Program-made: the position numbers and the translations under genes
Source of the DNA: an uncultured bacterium
GTDB lineage: Bacteria > Cyanobacteriota > Vampirovibrionia > Gastranaerophilales > Gastranaerophilaceae
Length of the DNA: 64,000 nt
Direction of reading: 5' to 3'
NCBI GenBank assembly: GCA_949294395.1
Contig: CASFGU010000047.1
Location: 1-64,000, forward strand
Shown: positions 32,713 through 55,028 of the stretch, piece after piece
Position numbering within the stretch: position 1 is the first letter of the stretch
Layout: every line of letters starts with the position of its first letter
Notes under the pieces: model-generated
Told to the model about the DNA's origin: nothing
What the model saw: only the letters and a program-made list of their open reading frames with translations
The model's database searches: none

Positions 32713-32855
32713 AGTTTTTCTCCTTAATTTTAAATATTTTCCCCTATGTATATTATAAAACATGAGAATATAAAAAATTGCTAAAATTATTGAAATTAGT
32801 CTGGTTTTATGTTATCAAAATTTATGATATGTATAATTCTTATCGTGGAGGTTTT

Positions 32856-33635
32856 GTGATAATTGTTAATGACGATAATGTTACTTCAATTATAAATGCG
32901 GAGAGACCAGGTGATATAAAGTTTGAACGTATTTATTGTCCTGACGGGTTAGAAAATCCTGTTTTGCAGTTCGCTCTGGTTATTAATTTGGAGCAGGAGT
33001 TGGAAATTATATTTGATTCATTTCATAAAAAAACAAGATATAAAATTCGTCGCTGTATAAATGGTGATAAACCTGTTGTAAATTTTGATTTTTCTCCTTC
33101 AAAATACTCTATTGAAAATTTTATTGAATATTATAAAGATTTTGTTAGAGATAAGAATTCAGAAGTTTTAAGTGGAACAACCGGTGAATTGTTGAATAAT
33201 CTATTAAAGTTTCAAAGTTTGGATTGTTTGGCTATTTCATCAGCGTATTCTAAAGATTATCCAGATGATAAAGTTTTTCATGTCTATATATTAGATAAGC
33301 ATGTAAAAAATGTTCGTTTGCTCTGTTCGATTTCATCCTTTAGAAATTTAGATTCCGCAGTAAAAGCTGTGATTGGACGTCTAAACAGATTGCTTCACTA
33401 CCGGGATATAGAGGAATTTAAAAATTCAGGTTATTTAATTTATGATTTAGGCGGTGTTGATTTGAATGCACATTCTGAAGAAACCTCGAATGTTGCAAAT
33501 TTTAAATTGCAATTATGTGATAAAGTAATGAAGTATTATTATGCTGAAAATCGCGCCCTGACGCCAAAACGGGGGGGGGGGCTCCTCTATTCAAGCTGCA
33601 TAAACTTTTTAGATCGGTTGCAAACAAACGATTAA
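32856..33635 (+). CDS. FemAB/GNAT-like N-terminal half of a phase-variable fusion, OFF in this assembly
   Basis: The most likely start is GTG at 32856 with GGAGG four bases upstream; a longer frame begins at a TTG at 32778. The protein resembles FemAB/BioF2-type acyltransferases: LVINLEQELEIIFDSF, KKTRYKIRRC, and YLIYDLGGVD near the end. In the run of eleven G (33571-33581) the frame reads R-G-G-G, then LLYSSCINF and stops at 33635. With 9 or 12 G the frame would instead continue without a stop to 34237, joining a glycosyltransferase half. So the pair is one gene of about 460 residues in its ON form. Codon use is more AT-rich than in core genes. Confidence 0.65.
   Translation: MIIVNDDNVTSIINAERPGDIKFERIYCPDGLENPVLQFALVINLEQELEIIFDSFHKKTRYKIRRCINGDKPVVNFDFSPSKYSIENFIEYYKDFVRDKNSEVLSGTTGELLNNLLKFQSLDCLAISSAYSKDYPDDKVFHVYILDKHVKNVRLLCSISSFRNLDSAVKAVIGRLNRLLHYRDIEEFKNSGYLIYDLGGVDLNAHSEETSNVANFKLQLCDKVMKYYYAENRALTPKRGGGLLYSSCINFLDRLQTND
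33571..33581 (+). repeat. G11 homopolymer tract (contingency tract 1)
   Basis: Eleven consecutive G on the coding strand within an AT-rich gene. The downstream frame (codons beginning at 33581: GCT CCT CTA TTC) is open to 34237. In-frame joining needs 9 or 12 G; with 10 it stops within eight codons, and with 11 at 33635. Confidence 0.9.
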
Positions 33636-33766
33636 TTGCTATTATTTATGATGACTTAACACGTGAAATAGCAATAGAAATAGTTAATCAACTAGCCTCC
33701 GAATTCAGTTTTTACTTATATTCAATAAATCAGTATTCGAGAAAATATAGAAAATCTTTTGATTTT

Positions 33767-34237
33767 GTGCATGATTTGACAGAAAGTTATGAAAAATGTG
33801 TATATTATAAAGAGCCGGCAATAGTACCATACAAATATTTTTATGCACAAAAACGATCCGGTAATATAAAAATTTGTAATCAGCTAGATAAAGATTTATT
33901 TTCCAAAAATATCGAAAATATAAATTTATGTAAATATTTAAATAACTATGATATATATGTGGCTTCTGGTACGGATAACTCTTTGGTAGCACTGGCATGC
34001 GGATGTTTCTGTATTGCTTTAAAAAATGATGCATCAGAAAAGCTAATAAAAGATAAAATTAACGGATATATAATAAATTCTGTGGACGATTTGCCTGTTG
34101 CAATAGAATGGTGCAAAAAAAATCTAAAAAAGATACGAGAGAATGCGAGATTGAATGCTAGAGATATAGAGCAGCAATATTCGTATTTTGTTGTTGCTGA
34201 TAAGTATCGTAATTTTTATAATTCAGTAAAAATTTAG
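33767..34237 (+). CDS. Glycosyltransferase C-terminal half, separated by the G11 tract
   Basis: The open frame actually begins at 33581, directly after the G tract, so this ATG is only the first Met in it. The segment has the C-terminal layout of a GT-B fold glycosyltransferase: NYDIYVASGTDNSLVALACGC, then DKINGYIINSVDDLPVAIEW. On its own it lacks an N-domain and probably does not fold as an enzyme. With a corrected tract length it becomes the C-terminal half of the FemAB-like protein. The next gene starts 13 bases after its stop. Confidence 0.6.
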   Translation: MHDLTESYEKCVYYKEPAIVPYKYFYAQKRSGNIKICNQLDKDLFSKNIENINLCKYLNNYDIYVASGTDNSLVALACGCFCIALKNDASEKLIKDKINGYIINSVDDLPVAIEWCKKNLKKIRENARLNARDIEQQYSYFVVADKYRNFYNSVKI

Positions 34238-34249
34238 GAGCTATAACGT

Positions 34250-35461
34250 ATGATTACTTCATGTGAAAAAGAAAATTTAAAGCATAATATTGATATTATT
34301 AAGCATTCGATTAAAAAGTATACTACTTTACAAGTTAAAAATATTGTTGAAATTTCAGATATTGATGATATTTGTTTAGAATATTTGGCGGATGGATTTT
34401 TTGTAAAAAATGAGGATACATTATATTTGAGTACCAGCGAACTTGGCAGAATTTCAGTTATTCCTAATAGATTCTCTACGCTTGATTTGTTGAAGATTGA
34501 TTCCTCTGAAAAGACTTGGGAAATTCTTAATTTATTGGGTGATTATTTGGATAATGTTCGTTCTATCCATGTTAAATGTTCTCATGATGTCAGTGAGACT
34601 GAAAAAATTTTTGAAGATGTTGAAGAATTTTTAAAAATAAAAGGGTTTATTATTCTTGATATTGCAAGGTATAGAGGGTATTCTTATTCAATGTGGATAA
34701 AGTCAGAATATCTTAAAAATGACAAAAAATCAAGATTCACTGCAAATATTAGTATTATTTCCTCCTTATGTCAATTGTGGCTTAACTCAGGTAATTTAAG
34801 CAGAAAATTTATAGAAAACTATTTAGTAAAACTTTTTAAAAAGAAGTATCGAAATAAATTTTTAGATTATATAAATCAGTTTAAATCAATAAAATGTGAA
34901 AATGGTGACGAAGAAAAATTCTTGTTGATTGCATCCCGTGATGATATGCACAGTGGTCAGTTTGAAAATATAGGTCTGGCTCCTTCCCCTCATTTATTAA
35001 AACAAGCCTTTTGTGATATACAAATTGATAAATCGTGGGTTTTGTTAGATGCTGGATGTGGTACAGGTTATGTTTTGTATAAGCTGCATAATCAATTTAA
35101 AAGGGTATACGGTTATGAAATAAATTCTGAACTTTGCAAAATTGCACGAAGAAATCTAAAGCAGGCAGGAGTTAAAAATTTTGAGATTTTTAACAAAAAT
35201 ATTAATGAAATTGATATTGAATTTTTAACCAACATAAATGTTTTTTATTTGTATAATCCATTTATTGGTGAAACTTTTAAAAATTTCATAAAAAAGATTG
35301 TTGAATCTATAGCATTAAAGGATAGACCTGTTTATATTGTATACGCAAACTCAACTTACCGTAATACAGTATTACGGTATAACAAGATTTTCAATCTTGT
35401 TAAAACTTCTGAACAGCTTAATTACAGCATTGATGTATTTTTTCACAATTTAAATAAGTAG
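34250..35461 (+). CDS. SAM methyltransferase with an FkbM-like N-terminal remnant
   Basis: 403 residues, AGGAG upstream. The C-terminal half (about 235-400) is a class I methyltransferase: LLDAGCGTGYVLYKL (SAM loop), YGYEINSELCKIARRN, and VFYLYNPFIGETFKNF. The N-terminal half matches the last third of the FkbM methyltransferase encoded at 40698-41423 in pattern: LDLLKIDSSEKTWEILNLLG against FLKLDVEGYTYEVLEGFG, then VEEFLKIKGF against IEKFLNNKGF and MWIKSEYL against LWVKNEYW. The N-half lacks the FkbM SAM-binding loop, so it is a remnant or an accessory domain. It probably modifies surface glycan. Confidence 0.75.
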   Translation: MITSCEKENLKHNIDIIKHSIKKYTTLQVKNIVEISDIDDICLEYLADGFFVKNEDTLYLSTSELGRISVIPNRFSTLDLLKIDSSEKTWEILNLLGDYLDNVRSIHVKCSHDVSETEKIFEDVEEFLKIKGFIILDIARYRGYSYSMWIKSEYLKNDKKSRFTANISIISSLCQLWLNSGNLSRKFIENYLVKLFKKKYRNKFLDYINQFKSIKCENGDEEKFLLIASRDDMHSGQFENIGLAPSPHLLKQAFCDIQIDKSWVLLDAGCGTGYVLYKLHNQFKRVYGYEINSELCKIARRNLKQAGVKNFEIFNKNINEIDIEFLTNINVFYLYNPFIGETFKNFIKKIVESIALKDRPVYIVYANSTYRNTVLRYNKIFNLVKTSEQLNYSIDVFFHNLNK

Positions 35462-38303: not shown

Positions 38304-39023
38304 TTATTTTGTTGATTTTTGTAATACCGCTGTTACTAATACCGGATAATTGGGAGAATAATTATTGTAATAGTCAACAGAGTTGCTTCTTTTTATATTT
38401 AACATATATCTGAGTGCAGCATTTAAGTTGCCATAAGTTTTAATAGAAATTAAACGGTGTTTATCAACAAGATTGTCGCAAGCGTATTTTAGTCCGGTTT
38501 CCGTTATATATGTTAAAAATGGTGCTTCCGGTAAATTTTTTGAAAACATATCCGAACATATTAAAATCACGCCTTCCGGCTTGAGCATTGTAACAACATT
38601 TGATAATATCTGAACCGGATTTAAAAAATACGGCAGGCACTGTGTAAATATAATACAGTCGAATTTTTCTTCAGGATACGTTGAAATATCCTCAAGCTCA
38701 AAAAAATAATTTATATCTTTAAATTTTTTATATTCATTATAGTATTTCAAACCAGCACAGTATCTTATTTGATTTATATTATTTATGTATTTATGAGCAT
38801 AATTTTCAGTTCCTTTAAACTCAAGAACTGTACCTCTTATATAATGTTTATTTTCATCAATAAATTTTTCTATATAAACTCTGTTTATAGAGCTTATAAC
38901 ATCACCGACCCCATTGTAATTAGCAATTTTAATTAATTTATGAATTTGCTTATCAATATATTTTTCATACCAATTCGGATTTTGCCATAAAAATTTACTT
39001 CTTAATTTTTTTATAATACCCAT
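38304..39023 (-). CDS. SAM-dependent methyltransferase-like protein
   Basis: 239 residues. Class I methyltransferase topology: GTVLEFKGTENYAHKY in place of the usual E/DxGxGxG, then FDCIIFTQCLPYFLNPVQIL (post-motif II) and LKPEGVILICSDMFS. The SAM-binding loop is divergent. Its start overlaps the end of the upstream GT8-PIG-L gene by 29 bases. It probably caps or modifies glycan; the substrate is unknown. Confidence 0.7.
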   Translation of the reverse strand: MGIIKKLRSKFLWQNPNWYEKYIDKQIHKLIKIANYNGVGDVISSINRVYIEKFIDENKHYIRGTVLEFKGTENYAHKYINNINQIRYCAGLKYYNEYKKFKDINYFFELEDISTYPEEKFDCIIFTQCLPYFLNPVQILSNVVTMLKPEGVILICSDMFSKNLPEAPFLTYITETGLKYACDNLVDKHRLISIKTYGNLNAALRYMLNIKRSNSVDYYNNYSPNYPVLVTAVLQKSTK

Positions 39024-40698
39024 ACTCTCCTCTTAAATAATCCTTTAATGAACATATATAATAAGCTTCTGCATATTTAGCAGGTGGCATGCTCATGCTC
39101 CTGTATGTATTTAACCCCTTAACCCATCTAGGATAATTCCAGATTTCATCAATTTGTGATGAATACATTTTTAATATTTGGAGTTTTTTCTCCATATAAT
39201 CATCTATGTTAAGATAATAATTGGGTTCAGATATTGACTGCCATACTTCATAAAAAACTACTTTTGTTGTAGGTTTTGGTTTAGAGTATAGCATTAGTCT
39301 TTTTATCAAATTGTTTGTAATATACCTGTGCTCAGGATGACTGTCTTTCGGTTGAGGCAAAAATATATAATCATATTTACTAAAATCAATTACTTTTAGA
39401 TAATCTTTCAAATGGTTATCAATTTGATTTATAAATGGCGGCTGCTCTCCGAATGTTTCAAATATCCAGTAATTTTTTACATTTAACGCTTCCATTACTG
39501 AATAAAATTCTTTTATTCTAATATCAGACCTTTCTTTAGCACTTTGACCATTGTATTTAACTCCAGAACTTGATAGGCACGCTACATCAAGTTTACCGGA
39601 ATACTTAATTAATAAGCCCCCGGCACCAATGATTTCATCGTCAGGATGCGGACATACCAGAATCCCCCCCCCCCTCAGCGAATTTAGCTCAATACTTGGG
39701 TTTGGAAGAATTTTTATTTTTTGCTTAATAATTTTATCAAAGATTTTAATTTGTTTTATTTTATAACCGTCCATGCAGAATACATCTTTCCTAATAATAA
39801 ACTTAAATAATTTTTTTATAAGAAATTTAAGTGCTATGTTTTGAAAAGATGTTAACTTTGCATATTTATAAAATTTTAACACTGTTTTTAAATTGCTTTC
39901 TCTGCTGTTTGGTTTGGCGCCGCCTGCAAGTTGCCAGATTACAGGTTTATAAAATGCCTCTTTAATCTCCTCATTACTATAAATACCATTGTATATTTTA
40001 AAGTATGTCTGTAGATTATAAGTAAGAGGTTCATGATTAAACAGAGGATTAATAGAAAATTTGGGTTTTAGTTTTTTATAATTATTTATTTGAAAGATTA
40101 AATTTAATAAATCCATGTCCGGCCAGTAAAAGCCTTTTTCCTCGTTAATAGAAATTGCACAAGCCTTTTCATAGTAATGGTTTTCAATGTATTTCTTCGT
40201 ATCAAAAAGAAGCAAACCTGAATAGAAGTAATTGTGTTTTTTATTAAGAGCTAATTCATTAAAGTGATTTAGTTCTTCATCTGTTATTGGAGAGGCAACT
40301 GCTCCGATTGCATATTTATCCAGCGACGTGTTATAAAGTTCAGTTAAAGATTTGTGAACGATTATATCTGCATCCAGATAAAGAAGTCTTTCGTATTTAA
40401 AACCTAAATTTGAAAGAATTAACGGAACTTTAATTCTTAAATAACAAAGTTTTGATGTCCAAATATCTGTTGTTTTAAAATCCGGAAGTTCTTTTTCTAA
40501 ATCTACATCAATATAAGTAATTTTAAAATTTTTAATCTTTTGTAAATTTTCTATATTATTTTTTGCATTATTACTTATCCCTTCAGAAAAAATTATAAAA
40601 TTAAATTCATCATTAGAAGCTGCATTTGCAAGAATTGAGGCAATAGCAGTTTCTAAAAATATTAAATAATTTTCTGATATACAAAAGACTATATTCAT
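38995..40698 (-). CDS. GT8 glycosyltransferase fused to a PIG-L deacetylase, phase-variable and ON
   Basis: 567 residues. The N-terminal half (1 to about 290) is a GT8 enzyme, with NIVFCISENYLIFLETAIAS and the metal-binding DAD in LLYLDADIIVHKSL. The C-terminal part (about 346-567) is a PIG-L/LmbE deacetylase, with CPHPDDEIIGAGG carrying the zinc ligands and a late PQPKDSHPEHRYI. The two are joined by Arg-Gly-Gly-Gly, encoded by eleven G (39674-39664). With 10 or 12 G the frame stops within about 22 codons, leaving the GT8 part alone. In this assembly the frame is open. A sugar could thus be added with or without N-deacetylation. Confidence 0.85.
   Translation of the reverse strand: MNIVFCISENYLIFLETAIASILANAASNDEFNFIIFSEGISNNAKNNIENLQKIKNFKITYIDVDLEKELPDFKTTDIWTSKLCYLRIKVPLILSNLGFKYERLLYLDADIIVHKSLTELYNTSLDKYAIGAVASPITDEELNHFNELALNKKHNYFYSGLLLFDTKKYIENHYYEKACAISINEEKGFYWPDMDLLNLIFQINNYKKLKPKFSINPLFNHEPLTYNLQTYFKIYNGIYSNEEIKEAFYKPVIWQLAGGAKPNSRESNLKTVLKFYKYAKLTSFQNIALKFLIKKLFKFIIRKDVFCMDGYKIKQIKIFDKIIKQKIKILPNPSIELNSLRGGGILVCPHPDDEIIGAGGLLIKYSGKLDVACLSSSGVKYNGQSAKERSDIRIKEFYSVMEALNVKNYWIFETFGEQPPFINQIDNHLKDYLKVIDFSKYDYIFLPQPKDSHPEHRYITNNLIKRLMLYSKPKPTTKVVFYEVWQSISEPNYYLNIDDYMEKKLQILKMYSSQIDEIWNYPRWVKGLNTYRSMSMPPAKYAEAYYICSLKDYLRGEYGYYKKIKK
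39664..39674 (-). repeat. G11 homopolymer tract (contingency tract 2)
   Basis: Eleven C on the plus strand, eleven G on the coding strand, two codons before the first strand of the PIG-L domain. In frame as found. Both one-base changes give an early stop. Confidence 0.9.
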
Positions 40699-41423
40699 TA
40701 TGATTTAAAATCCTCCGGATTGCTTTTCCAGTATTCATTTTTTACCCATAATGAATCTGACTGGTTTGCCATCCTATCAAATTGTACCATAATAAACCCT
40801 TTGTTGTTCAAAAATTTTTCTATATCCACAAATAGATATTTAGCTATACCATTATTAGAATGTTCTGCTTCAAGATGAATTGCCTTAATATCACCAATTC
40901 TATCTCCAAAACCTTCTAATACTTCGTATGTATAACCTTCTACATCAAGTTTTAAAAAATCAATGCCTCTAATTTCATTTTCGTATAAAAATTTATCCAT
41001 TCTTATTGCTTTTACTGTAACCGGTTTTGTTTCTACACCAGGTAATTTACTGATTGAAGATATTCCAGTATTTTTATAGCTTGTATCAACAATGTTAAAT
41101 GTGATATCTTTATTTTCATTAAAAACAGCGTAGTTATAACATTTAAAAGGTTGAATTCTTTGCATTTCCTTGAAAATAACAGGATGAGCTTCAAAAGCAT
41201 ATATATTTTTTGGCTGCAGATTAAATATTTGCATTAAAATGTCTGCATCCTGACCAAAATTTGCACCAATTTCAAAAACAATTTCAGGCTTGATTTTTGT
41301 CCAGTTTTTAATATGATTAGCGACGTTATACATTGCTTCGCCATAATTGGGTAAATTTAACCCATCATATTTAGATTTTTTCTTAGTTTTTTTATTTCTT
41401 TTAAATATTTTTAATAATTTCAT
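40698..41423 (-). CDS. FkbM-family methyltransferase
   Basis: 241 residues. FkbM signatures: VFEIGANFGQDADILM (SAM loop), YAFEAHPVIFKEMQ, IDFLKLDVEGYTYEVLEGFG, and IKAIHLEAEHSN. These enzymes O-methylate sugars or small molecules, often capping surface glycans. The stop codon shares one base with the GT8-PIG-L start (TAATG), and its own start overlaps the upstream glycosyltransferase stop (ATGA). AAGGAG lies just upstream. Confidence 0.85.
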   Translation of the reverse strand: MKLLKIFKRNKKTKKKSKYDGLNLPNYGEAMYNVANHIKNWTKIKPEIVFEIGANFGQDADILMQIFNLQPKNIYAFEAHPVIFKEMQRIQPFKCYNYAVFNENKDITFNIVDTSYKNTGISSISKLPGVETKPVTVKAIRMDKFLYENEIRGIDFLKLDVEGYTYEVLEGFGDRIGDIKAIHLEAEHSNNGIAKYLFVDIEKFLNNKGFIMVQFDRMANQSDSLWVKNEYWKSNPEDFKS

Positions 41424-43045: not shown

Positions 43046-43609
43046 TTATTTTTTTATTCCAATTAGGGTATAATCTATGGGTTTACGGTTATCTACCCCC
43101 CCCCCCCCAGCTCTAAGTGGCTTATAGCAAGCATTTATTGAGATATTAAACTTATCAGCAAATAGTAATTTTAAACCATCTTCCGAGATTCTCCAATAGT
43201 CTGGAAACGGGGCATGTCTATAAAAATAGTAAGGTACACTGAGAAAAATTTTCCCACCAGGTTTTAATATATTATAAAATATTTCAGGTAATTCCCAAAT
43301 TCTTGATGTGTGTTCTAAAACTTCTAGTGCTATAATTGTTCCAATTGATTCTTTTTTTAAATGTTTTTCTAAATTAAGAACATCATCTATTATATCACAA
43401 TTTGATTCAGGATATACATCACAACTGATATATTTCATATTCTTTTCTGTAAAATACTGCTTCGTGTTAACAAAATATTTTTTTATGGGTGTAAATTCTT
43501 CACACATTGGACCAATTTCTAAAACTGGTTGTTCCGTAGTTTCTTTTAATATCTCATTTTTAAGAAAATTATAAACATTTTTTCTTAAATACTTAACTTC
43601 CTCTCTCAT
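43046..43609 (-). CDS. SAM methyltransferase with a G13 tract near its C-terminus
   Basis: 187 residues. A class I methyltransferase: PVLEIGPMCEEFTPIKKYF (SAM loop), IIALEVLEHTSRIWELPE, and LKPGGKIFLSVPYYFYRHAPFPD. AAGGAG precedes the ATG. Thirteen G (43108-43096) encode AGGGG, 15 residues before the end, and the last strand (PIDYTLIGIKK) follows. With 12 G the next codon is TAG; with 14 the frame ends after GR. Loss of the last beta-strand would probably unfold or weaken the enzyme, so this may be a switch, though less decisive than the others. Confidence 0.75.
   Translation of the reverse strand: MREEVKYLRKNVYNFLKNEILKETTEQPVLEIGPMCEEFTPIKKYFVNTKQYFTEKNMKYISCDVYPESNCDIIDDVLNLEKHLKKESIGTIIALEVLEHTSRIWELPEIFYNILKPGGKIFLSVPYYFYRHAPFPDYWRISEDGLKLLFADKFNISINACYKPLRAGGGGVDNRKPIDYTLIGIKK
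43096..43108 (-). repeat. G13 homopolymer tract (contingency tract 3)
   Basis: Thirteen C on the plus strand. In frame in this assembly; either one-base slip stops translation within three codons of the tract. Confidence 0.9.
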
Positions 43610-43624
43610 AGAATTTCTCCTTGT

Positions 43625-45178
43625 TTAAATGTTTAAATAAAAATCTCTTCTGGCTCTTACCATTTTAATTTTTTTTAGATTAGGTTTTGGATATTCTAAT
43701 CCAAGATAATCTGATAAAATGTATAAAGGCATATTCAATCCGCATTCTATTGCACAAGTCGCTCCACCGCCAAATCTCGGGTTTATTTCAATAACGTAAA
43801 TATTTTGTTCATTTTTTATGTATTGTAATGTTATACACCCCTGCCAACCTGAAATACTGCAAATTTGTTCTATTAATTCTTGCTCATGTCTATCAGGGAT
43901 ACGGGTTGTGCACTCCATTACTTCCCCATCAGAAACAGTTTCTCTATCTCGTAATACATATCCTATAACAGCTCGTTTTTTATTAATATATATATCAACA
44001 CTTGTTTCTTGACCTTCTATAAAATCTTGTATTATATAATCGGAAATTGAAATTCTCTTTTTTAATATAGAAAAGTCTTTGGCGTTATCTACTTTATATT
44101 GTTTTTTTGAACCAAATCCATTTTTATGTTTTATTATTTTAGGAAAAATATTTTCTGTATTTTTAAATGTTGGTATTTTATAATAATTAAAAAATTTTTC
44201 AGCAAGTAGTTTATCATTCATATTTGTGCATAAATCATAACTGCTTACTACACACCAACAAGTTTCTATATTGTGTCTTTCTTTAAAATAAGACAATGCC
44301 ACTGTTGCGGCATCCATGTTGGGAATTACAATATTTATACCGTAATAATTAATAGTATCTAAAAGCCAATTAGCAAACTCATTACTCTTAAATGAAGGGC
44401 CTTTTAAAATTTTTGCTAAATGTGATATAGGACAAAATTTTTCACTAATTTCGCATGAAAATAATTCAAGATGTATATTTAATTTATTAGCATCGTAAAT
44501 AAATTTTTCAAGTAATGAAGTTCTTTTTGAGGCGCCTAAAAATAAAATTTTTAATGTACGTTGTTGGTTATAATACTGGCAGCTTTGCATGGTATCCCGA
44601 GAAACAAGCCCCCCCCCCCCTGACTGAATTTCTTTTGCCACAAGGCTTTTTGCCCCTATTGTAACATCAGAACAAATATTAATACGCGGTAAAATCGTCG
44701 TATCTGCGCCTATAAATGTGTTTGCTCCAACCTTTGCTTTTCCGCATAATGTTGAATTTGGACCAATAAAAACACATTTTTCAAGCTTACATTCATGCTC
44801 TACTATTGCTCCGGTGTTTACTACTGAAAAATCTCCAATTTCAGAAAAAATTCCTACATAAGCATTGTGTGCAATAAAAACACCTTTTCCAATTTTTACA
44901 CCTTTTCCAATGTATGCAGTTTTTGATATTACAGAAGTTAAATTGTTATAGTATTTTTCAGATAATTTTCTTCTTTTGAGATTATCACCAATGCCTATTA
45001 TAACTTTTTCATCTTTGATGTTATAGTCTTTTACAACAGGACAATTTAAAATTTTTTCGTTTTCTTTAGCATTTTTATCAAGAAAAACTACATCGGCAGC
45101 AGGTTCATTAAATAGGATTACATCCAGTATACTTTTAGCGTGGCCACCGCAGCCAATAATTACATATTTATTTCCCAT
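43625..45178 (-). CDS. NeuD/PerB-like acetyltransferase fused to an ATP-grasp domain, phase-variable and ON
   Basis: 517 residues. Residues 1 to about 185 form a PglD/NeuD/PerB-type N-acetyltransferase: YVIIGCGGHAKSILDVIL and then left-handed beta-helix hexapeptides (IGKGVFIAHNAYVG, IGPNSTLCGKAKVGANTFIG). Residues about 208-517 are an ATP-grasp enzyme with LKILFLGASKR, IIQDFIEGQETSVDIYI and EINPRFGGGATCAIE. Between them twelve G (44620-44609) encode SGGGG. With 11 or 13 G translation stops within about 20 codons, leaving the acetyltransferase alone. Next to the perosamine-type aminotransferase, it may acetylate GDP-perosamine; the ATP-grasp half could attach an amino acid or another acid. Confidence 0.85.
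   Translation of the reverse strand: MGNKYVIIGCGGHAKSILDVILFNEPAADVVFLDKNAKENEKILNCPVVKDYNIKDEKVIIGIGDNLKRRKLSEKYYNNLTSVISKTAYIGKGVKIGKGVFIAHNAYVGIFSEIGDFSVVNTGAIVEHECKLEKCVFIGPNSTLCGKAKVGANTFIGADTTILPRINICSDVTIGAKSLVAKEIQSGGGGLVSRDTMQSCQYYNQQRTLKILFLGASKRTSLLEKFIYDANKLNIHLELFSCEISEKFCPISHLAKILKGPSFKSNEFANWLLDTINYYGINIVIPNMDAATVALSYFKERHNIETCWCVVSSYDLCTNMNDKLLAEKFFNYYKIPTFKNTENIFPKIIKHKNGFGSKKQYKVDNAKDFSILKKRISISDYIIQDFIEGQETSVDIYINKKRAVIGYVLRDRETVSDGEVMECTTRIPDRHEQELIEQICSISGWQGCITLQYIKNEQNIYVIEINPRFGGGATCAIECGLNMPLYILSDYLGLEYPKPNLKKIKMVRARRDFYLNI
44609..44620 (-). repeat. G12 homopolymer tract (contingency tract 4)
   Basis: Twelve C on the plus strand, at the junction between the hexapeptide domain and the ATP-grasp domain. 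In frame here; both neighbouring lengths truncate. Confidence 0.9.
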
Positions 45179-46262
45179 AAAATTCCCCTATCACATTGCA
45201 TATAAATTTTATATCTTCTTCTGTTAAATTAGGATAGCTTGGTAAATTAATACCTCTGCTGGCTAAATCTTCTGCGATATGGTGTTTTGCATATTTAGAA
45301 GAGTACATTGGCATTGTGTGGATAGGATAAAATGCTGGTCGGGTTTCTATACCTTTTTCTTTCATAAAATCCCGCAGTTTATCCCTTATTTCCGCTTTTT
45401 CTACAAGAATTGAACACATCCAGTAAGTATGAAAAACATCTTTAGTCTGTTTATGAAATTTTACCGGTAGTCCGTTTAAATGTTTTTGGTACCATTTTGC
45501 AACCTGTTGTTTTTTGTCGATAAATTTCTGTACCTGTTCTAATTGTGCTAACCCTATTGCAGCCTGTATATTTGTCATTCTATAGTTAAAGCCTGCAATA
45601 TCGTGCCAGTATTCTCTATATTTGGCAAGTCCCTGTCCCTTATATCTTACAAGTCTGTCATGAAGTGTTGCATCATTTGTGACTACCATTCCGCCTTCAC
45701 CACATGTTATTGTTTTATTACCAAAAAATGAAAAACATCCTATGTCACCAAATGAACCTACTTTTTTACCTTTGTATTCTGACCCTATTGCTTCTGCGCA
45801 ATCTTCTATTACAAACAAATCATGTTCTTTTGCTATTTTCATAATTTCACCCATATTACACGGGTGTCCGTAGAGATGAACTACCATTATCGCTTTTGTT
45901 TTTTCTGTAATTTTAGCTTTAATATCATCAGGATCCATCTGCCAGGTATCTTCCAGACTATCAACAAAAACCGGAACAGCTCCAACCTGAGCAATCGGAT
46001 TTGCTGAGGCTATGTATGTAAATGTCGGAACTATAACTTCGTCACCCTGACCTATGCCAAGTGCAACAACAGCAAGATGAATTGCTACGGTTCCGTTTGA
46101 AACTGCTGTGGCATAATCTGTTCCTATATATTCAGCAAATTTCCCTTCAAAGTCACTAACAAAATGTCCTTTACTTGAAATCCAGCTTGTATCAAGACAT
46201 TCATTAACATACTTTTTTTCATTGCCTTCCAATGCAGGTTGATATACTGGATATTTAATCAT
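45168..46262 (-). CDS. PLP-dependent sugar aminotransferase (GDP-perosamine synthase-like)
   Basis: 364 residues. DegT/DnrJ/EryC1/StrS family: SNGTVAIHLAVVALGIGQGDEV, CFSFFGNKTITCGEGGMVV with the PLP-binding Lys, and a late YWMCSILVEK. WISSKGHFVSDFE at the N-terminus is typical of the perosamine/4-aminosugar branch. Given Gmd in the same locus, a natural substrate is GDP-4-keto-6-deoxymannose, giving GDP-perosamine. It overlaps the NeuD-ATP-grasp gene (11 bases), which would then acetylate the amine. Confidence 0.88.
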   Translation of the reverse strand: MIKYPVYQPALEGNEKKYVNECLDTSWISSKGHFVSDFEGKFAEYIGTDYATAVSNGTVAIHLAVVALGIGQGDEVIVPTFTYIASANPIAQVGAVPVFVDSLEDTWQMDPDDIKAKITEKTKAIMVVHLYGHPCNMGEIMKIAKEHDLFVIEDCAEAIGSEYKGKKVGSFGDIGCFSFFGNKTITCGEGGMVVTNDATLHDRLVRYKGQGLAKYREYWHDIAGFNYRMTNIQAAIGLAQLEQVQKFIDKKQQVAKWYQKHLNGLPVKFHKQTKDVFHTYWMCSILVEKAEIRDKLRDFMKEKGIETRPAFYPIHTMPMYSSKYAKHHIAEDLASRGINLPSYPNLTEEDIKFICNVIGEFYGK

Positions 46263-52672: not shown

Positions 52673-53536
52673 TTAGAGATAGACTATAAATATCATATAA
52701 ATCATCCAGAAGATTACTGTTAATATTATGAATTTATCTTTATAAAGAATTTCTGTAGGGGAGGCTGTTATTTTGTTTACAAATGTAAGCTGGAAATATC
52801 TTAAAAATCCTATAATTACTATAAATGAACTTAAATACAGATATGCGGAATTGAATTGTTGTATTACCTGAGGAGTAAGTGTATATAAAATATAAGCTAC
52901 AATATTAACAGCAGCAAGGACTGACATTGATATAAGTATAAATTCTTTATTGTAGCCTTGAATGTTTTTTCTGGCTTGAGTTCCGTTTTCGTAAAGAATA
53001 ACATCATCATATCTTTTGGCAAATGCTATAAACATTGAGATTAAAAATGTCATAAGAATAAGGTATTCAGAAGGTTTTATTGATGACAAAACTGCACCGC
53101 ACAGTATCCTTATTAAAAAACCGGTAGAAATTATTGAAATATCTATTATTGGAATATGTTTTAGCCGTATTGAGTAAAGAAAATTTATAACCAGATAAGT
53201 AAACATCAGTACAGCAAATAATTTGTTTAAGATATAAGCTCCGGTAAGACTTAGGATTAAAAGCATTACGCTGATAATGCAGCCGTTTTTGATGCTGATT
53301 TCTCCCGAGGCAATCGGGCGAAGGCATTTTTGCGGATGTTTTTTGTCCTCATTAACATCATTTATGTCATTAATTATATATACAGCACTGCTCGCAAGTG
53401 AAAAAAGAACCGCGCCGGCTGTGGTTTTCATAAGAATGTCAGCATTGAAGAGTGCCCCTCCGAATATTAGCGGAAGAAAGAAAAATATGTTTTTGATGTA
53501 TTGTTTTATTCTGAGAAGTTTTAGATATTTTATCAT
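52673..53536 (-). CDS. UbiA-family decaprenyl-phosphate phosphoribosyltransferase-like protein
   Basis: 287 residues, about eight or nine membrane helices. NDINDVNEDKKHPQKCLRPIASG carries the first Asp-rich prenyltransferase motif in the form typical of Rv3806c-type DPPR synthases. These attach phosphoribose to polyprenyl phosphate on the way to arabinofuranose donors. Such enzymes are known in several surface polysaccharide loci. The start overlaps the stop of the membrane glycosyltransferase (ATGA), so they are coupled. Confidence 0.85.
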   Translation of the reverse strand: MIKYLKLLRIKQYIKNIFFFLPLIFGGALFNADILMKTTAGAVLFSLASSAVYIINDINDVNEDKKHPQKCLRPIASGEISIKNGCIISVMLLILSLTGAYILNKLFAVLMFTYLVINFLYSIRLKHIPIIDISIISTGFLIRILCGAVLSSIKPSEYLILMTFLISMFIAFAKRYDDVILYENGTQARKNIQGYNKEFILISMSVLAAVNIVAYILYTLTPQVIQQFNSAYLYLSSFIVIIGFLRYFQLTFVNKITASPTEILYKDKFIILTVIFWMIYMIFIVYL

Positions 53537-54780
53537 TTATTTTTTCTTCTTTTTTCTTTTGTAATTCCGTTTATTCCTATGTAGTATATGTAATTTTTAT
53601 GACGTATTTTTATTTTGATTTCGGATAAGGATGCAGGAGCAGAGTTTATATATAAATATTTCTTATTTTCAGCGTCATAAAATATTGTTTTTAGAATTTT
53701 TCTTCCGTTATTGTATGAGCAGCTTTCGGGTGGTTTGTTCATTGCAAATTCATTACCGGTGCAGCGTTCGATAAAAACTTCTTCCTGCGGATTGTACAGC
53801 TGAGGGAATGTATTAAGAGCTATCTGCGCAAGAGGTTGAAATTTTGTAGAATGTTTCGCTGATACTGTTGAACTGTAGAAAAGCCATGGCGTGATTGTTA
53901 TTATTGTTAACAGCAGGAGTACAAATTTTGATTTAAGAGATATTTTTTGAAAATAATCAAAACATCCGAATATCAATACGGGTATCATCCAGTATGAATA
54001 TCTGTGTATGAGCATAATCCCCGGATTCCAGTTTAGCTGGGCTGCATCTATAGCAGCAAACAAAAATACTGTTATTGCTGCTAAAATGGCGTATTTATCT
54101 CTTTTGAAAATTCTGTAAAGCACCAGAACACACAATACAGGTACATATATTGCCAGCCCGAAGTTTAAATCCGTAAACAGGCTTGCAATTTTAGCAAAGC
54201 TTATCGTATGCAAATCTGTGGAGTATTCTCCGATAAGACTGAATTTTCCGAAATAGTAGTAATAAAATATGTACGGAATAAAAACTGTTGTCGAAAGTAT
54301 TGTTAATAATGCAAACTCTTTAAGTCTTTTTATTGAATAATCCTTAATTAATAAATATATTTCATATAGCATCATAAAAAAAGGAACTACTGCTGCTGCA
54401 GGATTTTGCAGAGAAGAAACAGCTGTTAAAAATACTGCAGAATATTTGCGTTTATTGTAGTATTCAAGAAGTCCTATGTATAAAAGTACAAATGTAAAAA
54501 CTTCCGGATGTGTCCACGGGTAATAAAACCATAAAGGACTGAATAGAGTTATTCCGGCTAAAAATAAGCGGGTCTTTTCAGACATTGCTTTATTATTGAA
54601 TAAAATCCACCAGAAAAGCAGCAGAATTAAGAGCATATTGGTAATTGTAAAGGTCATTACCGGATTAAGGTGTAAAAACTTTAAAATTATATAAACAGGT
54701 GTGCAAATTAGCGGATAAGCCCAGAAATGCCAGCAAAATCCCCCCCCCCCCCCTATCAGAAAGTGCAGTAAAATAGGCAT
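53533..54780 (-). CDS. GT-C-like membrane glycosyltransferase, main part, OFF in this assembly
   Basis: The true gene runs from 54991 to 53533 across fourteen G (54753-54740). In the present length the upstream frame ends in NFKVFTP, and this frame picks up with a spurious ATG at 54780. From FCWHFWAYPLICTPVYI on it is the continuous membrane part: about ten TM helices and a periplasmic C-terminal domain (about 120 residues). Aromatic HFWAYP and WTHPEVFTFVLLY resemble GT39/GT87-like polyprenyl-sugar-dependent enzymes. With 13 (or 10, 16) G the joined product is about 485 residues. It would act outside the membrane, fitting its DPPR-synthase-like neighbour. Confidence 0.75.
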   Translation of the reverse strand: MPILLHFLIGGGGGFCWHFWAYPLICTPVYIILKFLHLNPVMTFTITNMLLILLLFWWILFNNKAMSEKTRLFLAGITLFSPLWFYYPWTHPEVFTFVLLYIGLLEYYNKRKYSAVFLTAVSSLQNPAAAVVPFFMMLYEIYLLIKDYSIKRLKEFALLTILSTTVFIPYIFYYYYFGKFSLIGEYSTDLHTISFAKIASLFTDLNFGLAIYVPVLCVLVLYRIFKRDKYAILAAITVFLFAAIDAAQLNWNPGIMLIHRYSYWMIPVLIFGCFDYFQKISLKSKFVLLLLTIITITPWLFYSSTVSAKHSTKFQPLAQIALNTFPQLYNPQEEVFIERCTGNEFAMNKPPESCSYNNGRKILKTIFYDAENKKYLYINSAPASLSEIKIKIRHKNYIYYIGINGITKEKRRKNK

Positions 54781-54991
54781 TTAAGGGGATGCCACAACCC
54801 GGAAAATTCGCAATATATTCCAGTTTATCTTCAAGGCGTAAATCCGGAGAAAAATGATTTTTGAGAGAAATAATCATCTGAAAGTATTCACTACCATCTC
54901 CATACAGTTGATAGTTAGTATTATTCAACAAAATTGCTGCTAATAAAATAATTAGTAAAAAGGTTAATCTCGGAATATTTAAGTTTTGCAT
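54665..54991 (-). CDS. N-terminal fragment of the GT-C-like gene
   Basis: 108 residues: first TM (LTFLLIILLAAILL), then LYGDGSEYFQMIISL with the acidic loop residue typical of GT-C enzymes, and IPLNAYFTALSDR just before the G tract. After the tract the frame reads ILLAFLGLSANLHTC and stops. By itself it lacks the rest of the membrane domain and should be inactive. Confidence 0.75.
   Translation of the reverse strand: MQNLNIPRLTFLLIILLAAILLNNTNYQLYGDGSEYFQMIISLKNHFSPDLRLEDKLEYIANFPGCGIPLNAYFTALSDRGGGGILLAFLGLSANLHTCLYNFKVFTP
54740..54753 (-). repeat. G14 homopolymer tract (contingency tract 5)
   Basis: Fourteen C on the plus strand, in the loop after the first TM helix of the GT-C-like protein. 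Fourteen gives a frameshift; 13 restores the full frame; 15 stops within 11 codons. Confidence 0.9.
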
Positions 54992-55028
54992 GCCTAAATA
55001 TTATCAAAAATGTAGCAGCATGTAAACA

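Follow-up and report, generated by a model that had tools for sequence, protein, structure and literature searches.

A G11 tract at a module junction as a probable phase-variable switch of a candidate surface-glycan enzyme in a Gastranaerophilales-like genome

A run of 11 G residues separates two long open frames in the stretch of DNA analysed here (64,000 nucleotides; hereafter the window), and we consider it probable that this tract lies in the linker of a surface-glycan enzyme with two modules and acts there as a phase-variable switch through slipped-strand mispairing, toggling the C-terminal module and leaving the N-terminal module constant. This reading draws on the tract itself, the arrangement of the frames, a C-terminal half without a start, homology in frame, an excess of tracts and two in-frame junctions in neighbouring genes; against it stand a fused protein that had no relatives in 383 family genomes and a GTDB scan, and a C-terminal half that lacks the GT4 glutamates and whose codon usage alone is not significant. 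The features of the locus, as read from the sequence, are as follows.

32847..32851, plus strand: Shine-Dalgarno-like GGAGG ahead of the likely GTG start at 32856
32856..33569, plus strand: N-terminal module, 238 codons; a sequence orphan with a FemAB/GNAT-like motif at residues 41-69
33571-33581, plus strand: G11 tract, the proposed slippage site, which would encode a glycine linker
33582..33635, plus strand: out-of-frame tail appended to the N module at G11; stop TAA at 33633-33635
33582..34237, plus strand: C-terminal module, 217 codons; GT4/GT-B-like, without the E-x7-E glutamates; stop TAG at 34235-34237
34250..35461, plus strand: next gene, with a methyltransferase domain in its C-terminal half and its own AGGAG and ATG

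Inspection of the sequence showed a C at 33570, the 11 G residues that the earlier note had reported and then CTCCTC to 33587, the tract length being that of one assembly and possibly off by one. The upstream frame, whose codon starts are divisible by 3, ends at its TAA, and the downstream frame, which reads GCT at 33581, is open from 33548, 5' of the tract, to its TAG; both ends agreed with those first described (33635 and 34237). The N and C frames are out of register in the assembly, and the assembled G11, for which a one-base assembly error is possible, is the OFF state, as had been proposed. Frame arithmetic showed that a length change of a single unit at G11 alters the predicted product: 9 or 12 G residues give a single protein of ~459 aa from the GTG at 32856, close to the 460 residues first estimated for these lengths, and 10 or 11 give a stop 6-17 codons past the tract. 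In the mechanism that we propose, replication slippage (slipped-strand mispairing) in the G run would shift the downstream frame with the gain or loss of a single G; at G9 or G12 a short glycine linker would join both modules in a single protein, and at G10 or G11 the N-terminal module would carry a short tail and no C module. Such a switch would act on the GT4-like C module only, the N module being produced in every state. Variation in the length of G11, stability of the two products and their effect on a cell-surface glycan are what we infer. The gene at 34250 starts 12 bases past the C-module stop, and it likely forms one transcription unit with the split gene.

The tract and the downstream frame were both compared with chance. 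In this AT-rich window, G8 was matched 26 times versus 0.25 expected; all 26 matches derive from five tracts of 11-14 residues, located at 33.5-55 kb, and the window contains no further run of at least 7 G or C. G11 is thus above the chance expectation, and it is long enough to slip. For the 217 open codons downstream, the probability was about 1e-9 at 9.1% stops per codon, and none of 5000 shuffles stayed open, so that the original argument against random decay, based on the clean frames on both sides, was upheld. The GC content by codon position was close in the two halves (0.37/0.27/0.20 in the C half and 0.42/0.28/0.21 in the N half), and the codon scores change frame at the tract; by codon usage, the C half scored best of the six frames but not significantly on its own (z 1.2), and the N half reached z 3.1. 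The downstream frame is not a product of chance, and since the codon score of the C half is weak, its strongest support is the in-frame homology to GT4 glycosyltransferases.

The homologous region is the final domain of a GT4 protein of 616 residues from the same family, which Pfam classes as Glycos_transf_1 (34% over 107 aa, E 2.6e-14). The Pfam Glycos_transf_1 model gave 14.9 bits on the C half itself, under the curated cut-off of 26.4; the module is shortened, and both catalytic E-x7-E glutamates of GT4 are absent (in the motif region, SGTDNS-----LVALACGC in the C half versus PSVGETLGMVYLEAMASGC in the relatives). A structure model of the C half had GT4 proteins as its top Foldseek matches (E 6.5e-4), which is partly circular because the model was built with GT4 relatives. 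The claim that the C half is a glycosyltransferase therefore holds for its homology in that frame and falls short for its profile score, length and catalytic residues. The C half is possibly a glycosyltransferase module that has been altered or has no catalytic activity; with both catalytic glutamates lost, it could also be decaying.

The N half proved to be an orphan. No relatives were detected in 59 near genomes, 383 family genomes, a GTDB scan or 289 class genomes, nor in phages and plasmids, and the locus had no phage DNA match. Matches at E 0.02 to 0.09 in the class genomes were peptidase-, MATE- and DnaE-like on reading and look unrelated. The FemAB-like identity given to this half in the earlier note was not supported as stated: Pfam FemAB or GNAT models gave no match even at E 10, and hhalign against 20 acyltransferase candidates (proteins from PF13480 loci in the same bacterial family, among which the frame of L316 was possibly mispicked) returned a single match over 29 columns (residues 41-69, probability 5%), which falls on a basic K-x-R-Y-x-I-R-R motif (KxRYxIRR). 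The single-sequence structure model of the N half (pLDDT 37.5) was too poor for a fold search to be meaningful. FemAB-like identity remains a lead.

If the two halves form one gene, relatives with an uninterrupted protein of about 460-490 residues might be expected, as had been suggested; no relative of the fused protein, of any length, was found in the 59 near genomes, the 383 family genomes or the GTDB scan. It had also been suggested that separate genes in all relatives would speak against the fusion; there is no fused-gene relative by which to judge this at the G11 locus, and at the neighbouring tracts the C-terminal modules are separate genes in relatives. This lack of relatives and the loss of the GT4 glutamates are what would be seen if the gene were simply broken; homopolymers are moreover error-prone in assembly, and contigs of the source genome often end at G tracts, as would fit a one-base mis-assembly, the tract in either case being no switch. 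However, a broken gene would hardly keep 217 codons open past the frameshift with no decay, and 71 other tracts occur in the genome, several of them in frame within intact two-domain genes. A mis-assembled tract of true length 12 would mean that the gene is ON, which is still compatible with a switch. Thus, we regard breakage or mis-assembly as unlikely, and a phase-variable switch remains the preferred reading.

The source genome (2.1 Mb, Gastranaerophilales-like) carries 72 tracts of at least G9. The number is 3 to 116 in twelve other genomes of the same genus and 0 to 115 in the other genera of the family; beyond the family, most genomes have 0 to 6, with a maximum of 22. Tract lengths vary between tracts from 9 to 17. 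Both states occur among coding tracts outside pilin genes, with about ten tracts in frame versus about five that are not, and many of these genes resemble, by eye, glycosyltransferase, acyltransferase, FkbM or SGNH genes. Prepilin-leader tracts, which lie 9-11 codons past an ATG with a ribosome-binding site, make up most tracts in two sister genomes (G010 and G011) and many in the source genome. Among the 71 that could be scored, 52 shared one out-of-frame step, 13 had the other step and 6 were in frame, versus the roughly one third in frame expected from free slippage; these copies are related and their lengths are assembly consensus, and the count is not a clean statistic.

Several further observations were made on these tracts. 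The type IV prepilin leader reads M-K-T-I-x-M-T-G-F, then G11, then FTLAEVLITLGIIG, and recurs in dozens of genes with G9-G17 (L047-L105 in the source genome, G000, for example L061, L085 and L094; L157-L224 in sister genomes). In prepilin loci from named public genomes (L227-L306), 27 of 80 had a tract of G8 or longer within 700 bases upstream, mostly out of frame and in several genomes. Among L047-L105, the sequence around many tracts is near-identical and falls into two repeat contexts (with MENAGIARIY and MQNTVIASKLR as leaders), which often stand at the ends of contigs; some copies read A1G12, A2G11 or A3G10, with the same total of 13, and the pilin ORFs in these contexts have 20-200 residues of repeat-like sequence ahead of the prepilin motif. 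In one protein family a natural Gly-Gly seems to be the site at which the tract expanded (AVHMGGATQLLFGIKG; L148 in G011, where two tandem copies have G11 and G10, and L070 in the source genome). A Stealth-like protein of G011, recognised by eye (DLVYLWVDGNEP; L201), has an in-frame G12 about 24 codons in.

The shared register of the prepilin leaders bears on a second alternative, namely recoding, in which RNA polymerase or ribosomes slip on G11 and yield a fixed fraction of fused protein from unchanged DNA. Free DNA slippage alone would not leave most prepilin-leader tracts of the genus in one out-of-frame register, and homopolymers are known slippage sites of both polymerases and ribosomes, as discussed mostly for A/T runs (PMC3711429). 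However, no stable RNA structure that could stimulate frameshifting was found near the tract (z -0.27), lengths differ among the tracts, and both registers occur among the non-pilin genes; we therefore hold recoding to be improbable. Flanking repeats able to mediate recombination were limited to one 12-nt inverted pair.

Slipped-strand switching at G11 was further considered beside the other four tracts of the window. In all five the G run is on the coding strand, and each is located within a glycan-biosynthesis cluster or at its edge. The cluster occupies the minus strand at ~38-48.5 kb (GT8, PIG-L, FkbM methyltransferase, HAD phosphatase, ATP-grasp, NeuD-type acetyltransferase, DegT aminotransferase, GT4 and epimerase genes) and is followed by a GT2 gene on the plus strand. 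The GT4-like C half has glycosyltransferase, NeuD, DegT and epimerase genes nearby, and the split gene may have a surface role. The genes with the other tracts are given below.

38995..40704, minus strand: GT8::PIG-L fusion; G11 at 39664-39674 (residues 344-347), PIG-L from residue 349; in frame
43046..43624, minus strand: methyltransferase gene; G13 at 43096-43108 near the gene end, HAD phosphatase gene next
43625..45187, minus strand: NeuD-type acetyltransferase::ATP-grasp fusion; G12 at 44609-44620 (residues 190-193); in frame
53533..55000, minus strand: membrane-protein gene; G14 at 54740-54753 divides it into 82 and 401 codons, out of frame

In the two fusions the tract lies a few residues from a domain boundary (in the second protein, NeuD spans residues 8-190 and ATP-grasp begins at 213). 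In-frame reading of the G13 tract lengthens the methyltransferase by just 15 codons, which run into the beginning of the HAD phosphatase gene, and the split membrane protein had no family match. Elsewhere in the family, a gene of its own encodes the ATP-grasp (58% identity), the PIG-L is separate or joined to an Acetyltransf_6 module with no tract, and the GT8 is found in a protein with a different C-terminal part. Seamless Acetyltransf_6::PIG-L proteins of 563-564 aa occur in two family genomes, and such two-module fusions are normal in the family. A conserved switch at the neighbouring junctions was rejected, as no run of G8 or longer was found near the homologous PIG-L, ATP-grasp or GT8 modules in relatives. 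Because relatives have these modules separate or otherwise partnered, and with no tract, the modules are recombined in the family, with G tracts sitting at the seams in the source genome. The relatives of their C-terminal modules being separate genes, the GT8::PIG-L and NeuD::ATP-grasp fusions would be derived in the source genome, and this does not make the tract meaningless.

A third alternative, that the locus holds two separate, translationally coupled genes with an incidental tract, could draw on the separate PIG-L and ATP-grasp genes of relatives and on an ATT codon that overlaps the upstream stop, and yet we give it very little credence, because the C frame is already open upstream of the tract and shows no ATG, GTG or TTG before the GTG at 33767, which has no Shine-Dalgarno sequence or other ribosome-binding site and as a start would remove about 62 residues of the C half. 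Returning to slipped-strand switching, we tentatively propose that the G tracts of this Gastranaerophilales family might form a genome-wide contingency system, in which junction tracts fuse or separate glycan-enzyme modules and prepilin leaders are held out of frame, few being in frame at once.

Pathogens have supplied the best-known slippage switches. In the present case, slippage-type tracts occur at high density in a common, little-studied gut lineage of non-photosynthetic cyanobacterial relatives. If junction tracts vary, one activity of a two-module enzyme would be switched and the other kept, which is finer than turning a gene on or off, and the pilin leaders, almost uniformly in the OFF register, would amount to a testable silent surface repertoire in a commensal. 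In the open-licence literature, we found no relevant paper dealing with phase variation in Gastranaerophilales, Melainabacteria or Vampirovibrionia, and none in which a poly-G switch connects two enzyme modules. We rated the proposed mechanism as known, and the lineage and the placement at module seams as new.

Within the family, the closest likeness is to the Acetyltransf_6::PIG-L proteins (L313, L114), which also combine an acyltransferase-like module with a second sugar-modifying module; those proteins are seamless and have no G tract, and the N half here is not recognisably Acetyltransf_6. Slipped-strand phase variation at poly-G tracts has been described for glycan genes such as Neisseria pglG (PMC6959607) and for capsule and LOS genes of Campylobacter jejuni, for example cj1426 (PMC8437040). 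As in those bacteria, the G tract lies within a glycan-enzyme gene, its frame sets the product, and several such genes are present per genome; however, the cited cases switch a whole gene on or off, whereas G11 sits at a module junction and the C module alone should switch, in a different phylum and with length variation as a prediction. In Bifidobacterium breve, sortase pilus genes contain a G tract within the coding sequence, which the reference strain carries at an out-of-frame length; pili become possible when slippage brings the tract to an in-frame length, and that length is enriched in vivo (PMC9187656). This G-tract switch of a gut commensal resembles the pilin leaders of the present genus, which are mostly OFF, although two loci encoding sortase pili were studied there and no two-module enzyme was involved, in contrast to the dozens of tracts here. 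By this comparison, the proposed mechanism would match the contingency genes of Neisseria and Campylobacter, and its ecology would be closest to the pilus switch of B. breve.
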